From a virus, in the IMG/VR virus record IMGVR_UViG_3300042937_000244, positions 1-34,678 of that record: DNA of 34,678 nucleotides. The stretch is one strand, 5' to 3'. The stretch's first letter is position 1. The number at the start of each line of letters is the position of its first letter. The notes below the pieces were generated by a model that did not search any database, had not been told where the DNA came from, and saw only the letters and a program-made list of their open reading frames with translations. Below are positions 9,225 through 34,678 of the stretch, piece by piece. The position numbers and the translations under genes are program-made.

Positions 9225-9806
9225 TTAGACAGTCGCCCATCCCGGCGCGCGGTCCGATATGGTTGATCCTTGGTTGGCGCGCGTCGGCATAAGCAAGCCG
9301 AATCCGTCAATATCATCACCGAAAGTAACAAGCGCCGGGCCTTGGCCATTTTGGGCGATTTTGACGCAATCGCCTTTGGCGGCGAGAGCTTTGGCTACCT
9401 TGGCGAAATCGCCGACGTATGACGGATTAAACTGCGCCGTCTCGCCTGATATTTCTTTCGGCACAATGCGCCGCCAGTCGGGAAACGAGCCATCAATCGG
9501 CGAAAAGACAATGCTTGTCCCGCAATAGTCAATTCGCCAACGATTCGCGCTCTCTTGCGTCAATTCGGCGCGCTCATCATATTTGCCAGGTTTGATTCCG
9601 GCGATTATGTCCGCCGGGATGATGATATTGACTGGCGCTTGCGCCTCGGCGGACTGACGGAAGGCCATCGCACGGTGGCCGTCAGTCGCCACGATAAACG
9701 CGCCTTCGTCGCTCGCTTGCACGGCAACACCCTTCAAATAATAGCGCGTCTCTTCTTTGCTGGCGACGATGACAGCGGCTTTGAGATATTTGACATTCAG
9801 TTCCAT
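9225..9806 (-). CDS. DNA sliding-clamp-like protein (reduced beta clamp, 193 aa)
   Basis: TRYYLKGVAVQASDEGAFIV followed by ATDGHRAMAF matches the domain II hallmark of bacterial beta clamps (YYLNG…VATDGHRL), and FPDWRRIVPK matches FPDYRRVLPK at the domain end. AQFNPSYVGDF and the terminal GFGLLMPTR then match the second half of domain III (IGFNVSYVLDV, YVVMPMRL). Domain I and the first half of domain III appear missing: 193 residues against about 366. It may act as a processivity factor, a decoy for host clamp partners, or both. The ATG at 9806 has GGGAG 9 bases upstream; a GTG three codons earlier is less likely. Confidence 0.8.
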   Translation of the reverse strand: MELNVKYLKAAVIVASKEETRYYLKGVAVQASDEGAFIVATDGHRAMAFRQSAEAQAPVNIIIPADIIAGIKPGKYDERAELTQESANRWRIDYCGTSIVFSPIDGSFPDWRRIVPKEISGETAQFNPSYVGDFAKVAKALAAKGDCVKIAQNGQGPALVTFGDDIDGFGLLMPTRANQGSTISDRAPGWATV

Positions 9807-9821
9807 TGTATTCACTCCCGG

Positions 9822-33591: not shown

Positions 33592-33810
33592 TTGCCAAAC
33601 CCAAGACTACGGAAGAGACTGCTTCTGATCTTGACGCTGGTCGGTTCTAGCGGCTGTCAGTCGACGAGCGGGGGTTGCCCTCCGCTCGTAAATTACACGG
33701 TCGATCAGCAGTTACGCGCCGCGCGGGAACTGCGCAGCCTCCCGAAGGGAAGTCAGCTCGCTCAGTTTGTCACTGACTACGGGAAGTTTCGCAGCGCGTG
33801 TCGGCTTTGA
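33592..33810 (+). CDS. Rz1-like outer-membrane spanin lipoprotein (72 aa)
   Basis: A basic N-terminus and hydrophobic stretch (RLRKRLLLILTLVGSSGC; the frame begins MPNPRL) end in a lipobox-like SSGC near residue 22. The mature part (CPPLVNYTVDQQLRAARELR then KGSQLAQFVTDYGKFRSACR) matches small o-spanin-like phage lipoproteins. The start is a TTG, with AGG upstream. The last 99 bases lie opposite the end of the leftward DUF6378-like gene. It would act with an i-spanin to disrupt the outer membrane. Confidence 0.7.
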   Translation: MPNPRLRKRLLLILTLVGSSGCQSTSGGCPPLVNYTVDQQLRAARELRSLPKGSQLAQFVTDYGKFRSACRL

Positions 33811-34140
33811 CGCCTGCGCTACCTTCCGGTTAGCCTTCTTCTGATAGGCGATCGCTTCCGACCCCTGCTTCGACATGATGTAGTCCTCGGCGAAGGTCGC
33901 CGCGAACATCTCATAGTTCATCGCGTCAACATGGCTGTCGAGGTGATTCGGCGACGCAAACGCACGCGCATTCTTCACGCACGCCATAATGACGGCGATC
34001 TCGTAAGGATGGAAGTCGCGCCCAAGGCGCAGACTGGCAAGGTCGGAGATCAACTGGAAGTTGTCTTCGATTCCGCCGTAGTTAGCGCCGCGCTCGGCGA
34101 TTACGTCCCCGGCCAGCTTTAGAAGTTCGTGCGGTGTCAT
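33712..34140 (-). CDS. DUF6378-like protein (142 aa)
   Basis: Residues 8-80 (LAGDVIAERGANYGGIEDNF, QLISDLASLRLGRDFHPYE, IAVIMACVKNARAFASPNHL, DSHVDAMNYEMF) match the DUF6378 family of phage proteins, thought related to MazG-like nucleotide pyrophosphatase folds; activity is unproven. The C-terminal 33 residues lie opposite the spanin gene. GAGAG lies upstream of ATG 34140. It belongs to the same leftward operon as the helicase. Confidence 0.75.
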   Translation of the reverse strand: MTPHELLKLAGDVIAERGANYGGIEDNFQLISDLASLRLGRDFHPYEIAVIMACVKNARAFASPNHLDSHVDAMNYEMFAATFAEDYIMSKQGSEAIAYQKKANRKVAQASKPTRAAKLPVVSDKLSELTSLREAAQFPRGA

Positions 34141-34315
34141 CTATTTCTCTCATCAATTCGGCCCGTTCACGCAACATCCGCAGCGTCGTAAAACGCTGGT
34201 GCAGACGTATGATGAATGTAGACCGCCGAGCGTTACGGCGCTCGTCCTCCAAGAGGTCCAATACCTCTCGTTCCGTCAGGCTGGTCAGCACGTTCTGGAG
34301 TTCCGGCCAATTCAC
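34082..34315 (-). CDS. Small conserved helicase-linked protein (77 aa)
   Basis: NWPELQNVLTSLTEREVLDL and STFIIRLHQRFTTLRMLRER match a small family commonly encoded between helicase and nucleotide-metabolism genes in podoviruses; no function is known. It begins at a GTG that overlaps the helicase stop (GTGA) with GGAGGAAC close upstream. The end overlaps the start of the next gene by 59 bases, in a basic tail. Confidence 0.7.
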   Translation of the reverse strand: MNWPELQNVLTSLTEREVLDLLEDERRNARRSTFIIRLHQRFTTLRMLRERAELMREIDDTARTSKAGRGRNRRARR

Positions 34316-34678
34316 TTCAGTTCCTCCAAGGCGATCTCAGCCAATGTTCGCTTGTCTTTTAGACTTTCGAATATCCGCTCGTCAATAGTTTTATTACAGA
34401 GGATGACGTAACACCACACGTCGCGGGTCTGGCCGCTGCGGTGCAGCCGGCCGATGGTCTGTTCGTAAAGCTCCAGCGACCACGGCAGCGACAAGAAGAC
34501 AATCTTGTTACCGCCGAATTGCAGGTTGAGCCCGTGCCCGGCGCTCTTGGGGTGGATGGCCAATAGCTGAATTTTGCCGGCGTTCCAGTTATCCACAGCG
34601 TTGTCTTCGTCGATGGTGGTCAGCTTGTAGCGGCGCTTCAGCTCGGCCAGCTCTTCCTTGTAGTTGTAGACAACGATA
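34312..34678 (-). CDS. SNF2-type helicase, C-terminal part, cut by the window edge
   Basis: The visible ~122 residues contain VVYNYKEELAELKRRYK, motif V SAGHGLNLQ and motif VI QTIGRLHRSGQTRDV, the C-terminal helicase domain of SF2/SNF2-family proteins. It would move along or remodel DNA using ATP, perhaps in replication or recombination. The N-terminal domain with Walker A lies beyond the right edge. The reading frame is open to the edge. Its stop is coupled to the next leftward gene. Confidence 0.9.
   Translation of the reverse strand, partial: IVVYNYKEELAELKRRYKLTTIDEDNAVDNWNAGKIQLLAIHPKSAGHGLNLQFGGNKIVFLSLPWSLELYEQTIGRLHRSGQTRDVWCYVILCNKTIDERIFESLKDKRTLAEIALEELK

Follow-up and report, generated by a model that had tools for sequence, protein, structure and literature searches.

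Sliding clamps are known as rings of whole domains, and the question raised by this locus is what a phage does with a clamp protein that has only some of those domains. The gene, which we call the mini-clamp gene, lies in virus record IMGVR_UViG_3300042937_000244 of IMG/VR, and "the window" below means the whole stretch of 34,678 nucleotides of that record that was analysed. The open reading frame is real and well placed for translation, having an ATG start with GGGAG upstream of it (Table 1). Putative promoters and terminators near the gene were no more than expected by chance, and the repeats found there are weak and short.

As judged from sequence profiles and a predicted structure, the protein is made up of both halves of DnaN domain II followed by half-domain IIIb, the second of domain III, corresponding to DnaN 128-366. 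In Pfam the DnaN central domain, PF02767, matches residues 12-113 (40.6 bits for a cut-off of 27, E 3.5e-10) and is the sole match at E up to 1; none was obtained for the C-terminal part by itself. In the PDB, significant sequence similarity is to solved DnaN clamps. In profile-profile comparison a profile built from 27 mini-clamp relatives aligned with full-length DnaN continuously from 137 to 366 (probability 99.9, E 9.6e-32), with only one gap, of about 60 residues. What the gap removes is half-domain IIIa, the first of domain III (about E. coli 254-313). The spacing from the FPD motif to the Asn of the domain III helix tells the same story, being 19 residues (range 19-30) in 85 mini-clamps and 79 (range 78-87) in 16 full clamps. 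Of domain III the protein thus has IIIb and lacks IIIa, and PF00712, the family for domain I, has no match in the protein.

The AlphaFold2 model of the mini-clamp (pLDDT 87.4, pTM 0.82) superposes on residues 128-366 of the E. coli clamp 6fvl_D with Z 17.5 and 2.2 A over 171 residues, and on clamp 7evp_A with Z 18.3 and 1.9 A over 172 residues. As domain II and IIIb superpose simultaneously on solved clamps, both parts are in their native mutual position. A distant member of the family, only 30% identical (L027), gave a model with pLDDT 82 that matches the E. coli clamp with Z 12.3 and 3.8 A; the arrangement is the same but less sharp, and the linker is of low confidence. The half-domain assignment is far beyond chance, and the protein consists of three consecutive DnaN-type half-domains, in the ring order IIb-IIa-IIIb.

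Table 1. Features of the mini-clamp gene, its product and its surroundings in the window
Feature	Position	Strand	Basis or remark
Mini-clamp CDS, 193 aa	9225..9806	-	ATG 9804-9806, stop 9225-9227
Shine-Dalgarno-like GGGAG before the mini-clamp ATG	9815..9819	-	sequence
Half-domain IIa, residues 1 to ~56	9639..9806	-	profile alignment, model and superposition
Half-domain IIb, residues ~57-117	9456..9638	-	profile alignment, model and superposition
Half-domain IIIb, residues ~118-178, abuts IIb	9273..9455	-	profile alignment, model and FPD spacing
C-terminal tail, residues 179-193	9228..9272	-	low model confidence
Pocket motif RYYLKG, residues 21-26 (E. coli R152, L155)	9729..9746	-	
Pocket motif TDGHR, residues 41-45 (E. 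coli T172-R176)	9672..9686	-	
Pocket motif DGSFPDWRRI, residues 105-114 (E. coli P242, R246, V247)	9465..9494	-	
Pocket motif FNPSY, residues 126-130 (E. coli N320, Y323)	9417..9431	-	residues of IIIb first helix
Pocket motif LLMPTR, residues 171-176 (E. coli V360, M362-R365)	9279..9296	-	
Phage family A DNA polymerase, 632 aa	911..2809	+	no canonical CBM
Primase-helicase, 775 aa	3335..5662	+	RepB_primase and DUF5906
Upstream neighbour ORF, 80 aa	9822..10064	-	no family match
Downstream neighbour ORF, 152 aa	8704..9162	-	no family match
Helicase_C, C-terminal piece of a phage DNA helicase	34312-34596	-	near record end, probably cut there
DUF6378 protein	33712-34140	-	PHROG relatives labelled phosphofructokinase, a doubtful label

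The first-pass annotation of this DNA had described hallmarks of domain II running straight into the second half of domain III, with domain I and IIIa absent and the usual two-subunit ring ruled out, and this account of the architecture stands. The alignment goes well beyond domain II, the C-terminal part has domain III similarity right up to DnaN 366, and the homologues lack the same half, which argues against misassembly. The dimer residues Ile78, Phe106, Ile272 and Leu273 are all missing, as they are sited in the absent domain I or IIIa, Ile272 and Leu273 being in the first half of domain III. With domain I and IIIa both gone the usual two-subunit DnaN ring is impossible for the mini-clamp. 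The same annotation had also suggested that the protein might work with a family A polymerase, and that part is not supported, as discussed below.

The mini-clamp is not peculiar to the window. We collected 84 distinct mini-clamp sequences from IMG/VR and phage loci, and a genome-wide search with a narrower alignment gave 4 further ones in bacterial assemblies. The member in phage SE1 is matched by 252 phage records. The family is widespread in phages, and its carriers differ in replication type and gene context. One junction is common to the 84 distinct relatives, which come from many samples and include sequenced isolates. The dN/dS ratio of the mini-clamp against close relatives is about 0.08, and it is under purifying selection. 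The C-terminal tail is missing from enterobacterial relatives, which end with MPMR(L/I). In a tree of 46 mini-clamps and 21 full-length clamps, phage-borne ones among the latter, a single branch separates the two types (SH-aLRT 90). This agrees with one deletion long ago, and repeated independent truncation of host DnaN is thus not favoured.

With regard to what has been kept, the clamp-binding-motif (CBM) pocket of DnaN has its lining residues in domain II and in IIIb (PMC11139829), and the three half-domains of the mini-clamp are exactly those that form it. Among 46 non-redundant relatives the same or a related residue is found in most of them at most of the 18 aligned pocket positions, and the equivalents of R152, L155, T172, G174, H175, P242, R246, M362, P363 and R365 are nearly invariant. 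Since pocket residues are conserved in clamps too, we tested for an excess over that baseline, and the pocket columns are kept above it (p 0.003). Within clamp-conserved columns, mini-clamps have a conservation of 0.81 at pocket positions, compared with 0.65 outside them. Of the pocket cells 79% carry the clamp-consensus residue, as against 52% in the other clamp-conserved columns. By this comparison the predicted CBM pocket is retained.

Other parts have changed. R197 and K235, basic residues on the inner side of the clamp, are nearly invariant in full clamps and not conserved in mini-clamps (0.23 and 0.26), and the equivalent of K198 is acidic in 76% of mini-clamps. There are new lysines on all three mini-clamp helices, and the net charge of the IIIb helix is +1.0 as compared with -0.25 in clamps. 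The new lysines make a DNA-binding face possible for the mini-clamp.

We looked for the partners that a clamp would need. Domain I was found in none of 38 mini-clamp records (the window and 37 others), while the same search matched 3 of 3 full-clamp phages used as positive controls, and the idea that the missing halves are encoded elsewhere was dropped. A search of 35 mini-clamp records for a clamp-loader subunit of DnaX/HolB type gave no match. Some of the records searched are fragments, but those of the named phages, eight to eleven in number, are deposited as complete genomes. A family A polymerase (PolA) is present in 20 of 41 records, but 17 of the 20 polymerases fetched are at least 66% identical to that of the window, so the association is mostly that of one lineage. 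None of 21 phage PolA proteins has a canonical CBM pentapeptide, one having a hexapeptide-like QIDMDL, and pairing with a family A polymerase through the pocket is thus not supported. CBMs are not in excess in ten phage proteomes either, with 7 pentapeptides seen for 7.5 expected and 8 hexapeptides for 10.3 expected. The hexapeptide QMHLSL, which four related phages have in a ParB-like protein encoded in the mini-clamp operon, was considered as a CBM and rejected, as it lies in what reads as the HTH recognition region and motifs of this kind are not above chance. The lack of a CBM in PolA and of any excess in the proteomes makes host proteins the likely ligands.

We tentatively favour the reading in which the mini-clamp is a phage-specific, non-encircling pocket protein that captures clients of the host clamp. 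The three half-domains hold the complete CBM pocket and are unable to build the normal dimer interface. During infection a soluble, non-encircling mini-clamp would bind the CBMs of host clamp clients, candidates being clamp-loader delta, Pol III and regulators of repair or initiation, and by competition with host DnaN it would divert or damp host replication and repair. Of the single targets delta is probably the likeliest, as its reported binding to monomeric beta is about 50-fold tighter than that to the ring (PMC11139829). Against this reading, the gain of helix lysines could be for contact with DNA. Phages yong1 and Bas78 have no PolA or Pol III alpha match; in yong1 a strong block on clients would harm the phage itself, which makes an adaptor role or a narrow target possible, and for these two phages one or other of these is more likely.

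Rather less probable, but the best of the alternatives, is a new type of processivity clamp. Its subunits, each of three half-domains, would form a closed ring, for example of four, in which each IIIb packs against the IIIb of its neighbour where IIIa would normally be. The arithmetic is attractive, as four subunits of three give the usual twelve half-domains in even division, the fold is fully clamp-like, the new helix lysines are conserved, and many of these phages are replicated by their own polymerase. However such a ring needs a pairing of subunit halves unlike any in known clamps, R197 and K235 of full clamps are not conserved, the phage PolA proteins lack canonical CBMs and no phage clamp loader was found in 35 records. 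A ring of novel stoichiometry, such as four subunits, that either depends on the host loader or needs none is unlikely.

It is also unlikely that the mini-clamp serves the replication or recombination proteins of the phage itself as an adaptor, its pocket binding a phage protein or a recruited host protein by a non-canonical motif and tethering it to another factor without encircling DNA. In BcepC6B the mini-clamp gene comes directly after PolA, in the lambdoid Hafnia phage yong1 it lies between CII and an O/P-like replication pair, and among near neighbours (105 proteins scanned) there are replication initiators and helicase loaders, together with ArdC, ArdA, methyltransferases and DUF932 proteins. 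However the neighbours vary across lineages, CBMs are not in excess in the phage proteomes, and in several genera the gene is isolated amid head genes on the other strand, as in Dhillonvirus, Kagunavirus, other Guernseyvirinae and Skatevirus-like phages, in the last of which it is behind ParB-like and methyltransferase genes. In the window it is within a leftward run of small genes of unknown function, apart from the polymerase and primase-helicase genes. The recurrence of these neighbour types was counted without a control set and is only suggestive.

Some other features of the neighbourhoods deserve mention. Genes for anti-restriction proteins (ArdC, ArdA), DUF932 proteins and DNA methyltransferases recur within two genes of mini-clamps. 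In five loci a small DUF7249 gene stands no more than two genes from the mini-clamp, and the DUF7249 protein and the mini-clamp may work together. Candidates for this gene are small neighbours of about 92-96 aa in several viral contigs, for example at +1 in L021, L022, L012 and L027.

That the mini-clamp poisons the host clamp by joining or capping DnaN is improbable: phage inhibitors of DnaN are known (PMC11139829), but both half-domains that make the DnaN dimer interface are absent. Decay or an assembly artefact, for which nothing speaks except the missing parts, can be dismissed as most improbable of all given the purifying selection and the junction common to so many relatives, sequenced isolates among them.

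The family is already in the databases under other labels. The protein matches the PHROG_3007 profile with E 5.2e-35, residues 3-181 aligning with 2-187 of its 190 positions, and this profile is labelled "RusA-like Holliday junction resolvase", as are genes whose annotation seems to derive from it. In EP23, Kagunavirus and Skatevirus the label for mini-clamps is "DNA polymerase III beta subunit". The aligned members with one or other label (SE1, Bas78, BcepC6B and others) are all mini-clamps, of about 171-200 aa. The RusA domain PF05866 was not found in the mini-clamp by Pfam at E up to 1, and the structural matches listed for the model are clamps. Neither Pfam nor the listed fold matches support the RusA identity, and the label is apparently wrong. 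The "beta subunit" label in turn hides the fact that most of the clamp is absent. The RusA-like label is also on PHROG_12598 and has spread to RefSeq and to recent phage records; examples are L034:8088-8603 and L038:5974-6510.

Among the open-access papers searched we found no study of mini-clamp function or of the half-domain architecture, and those on phage clamps and on BASEL phages do not discuss the gene. Many phage genomes would be better annotated if the RusA-like label were corrected. A large phage family that keeps only the pocket would be either a natural competitor for clamp clients or a new way to build a clamp, and in the first case it would open a way to host takeover and provide a natural template for drugs against the pocket. 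The mini-clamp is easy to test, as there are members in phages that grow on E. coli K-12.

In comparison with known systems, the mini-clamp is closest to DnaN (PF00712, PF02767, PF02768), with which it shares the sequence and fold of domain II and IIIb and the CBM pocket, but it differs in having no domain I, no IIIa and no normal dimer, and in not keeping R197, K235 and K198. Full-length DnaN homologues are also borne by phages (Microcystis phage Mae-JY04, Paracoccus phage Psul1 and Rhizobium phage RHph_X2_25), but these, unlike the mini-clamps, have domain I and a whole domain III and group with bacterial clamps in the tree. A further phage clamp homologue, L030:2938-5367, is an open frame of 810 aa with a long charged C-terminal extension. 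T4 gp45 and PCNA share with the mini-clamp the general clamp fold and smaller subunits, but they have two whole domains per subunit and form trimers, whereas the mini-clamp has one whole domain and one half, three half-domains in all, and matches DnaN best. The DnaN inhibitor Gp168 of phage Twort would have the same host clamp system as its target, if the decoy reading holds, but Gp168 fills the DNA channel of the clamp, whereas the mini-clamp imitates part of the clamp itself.
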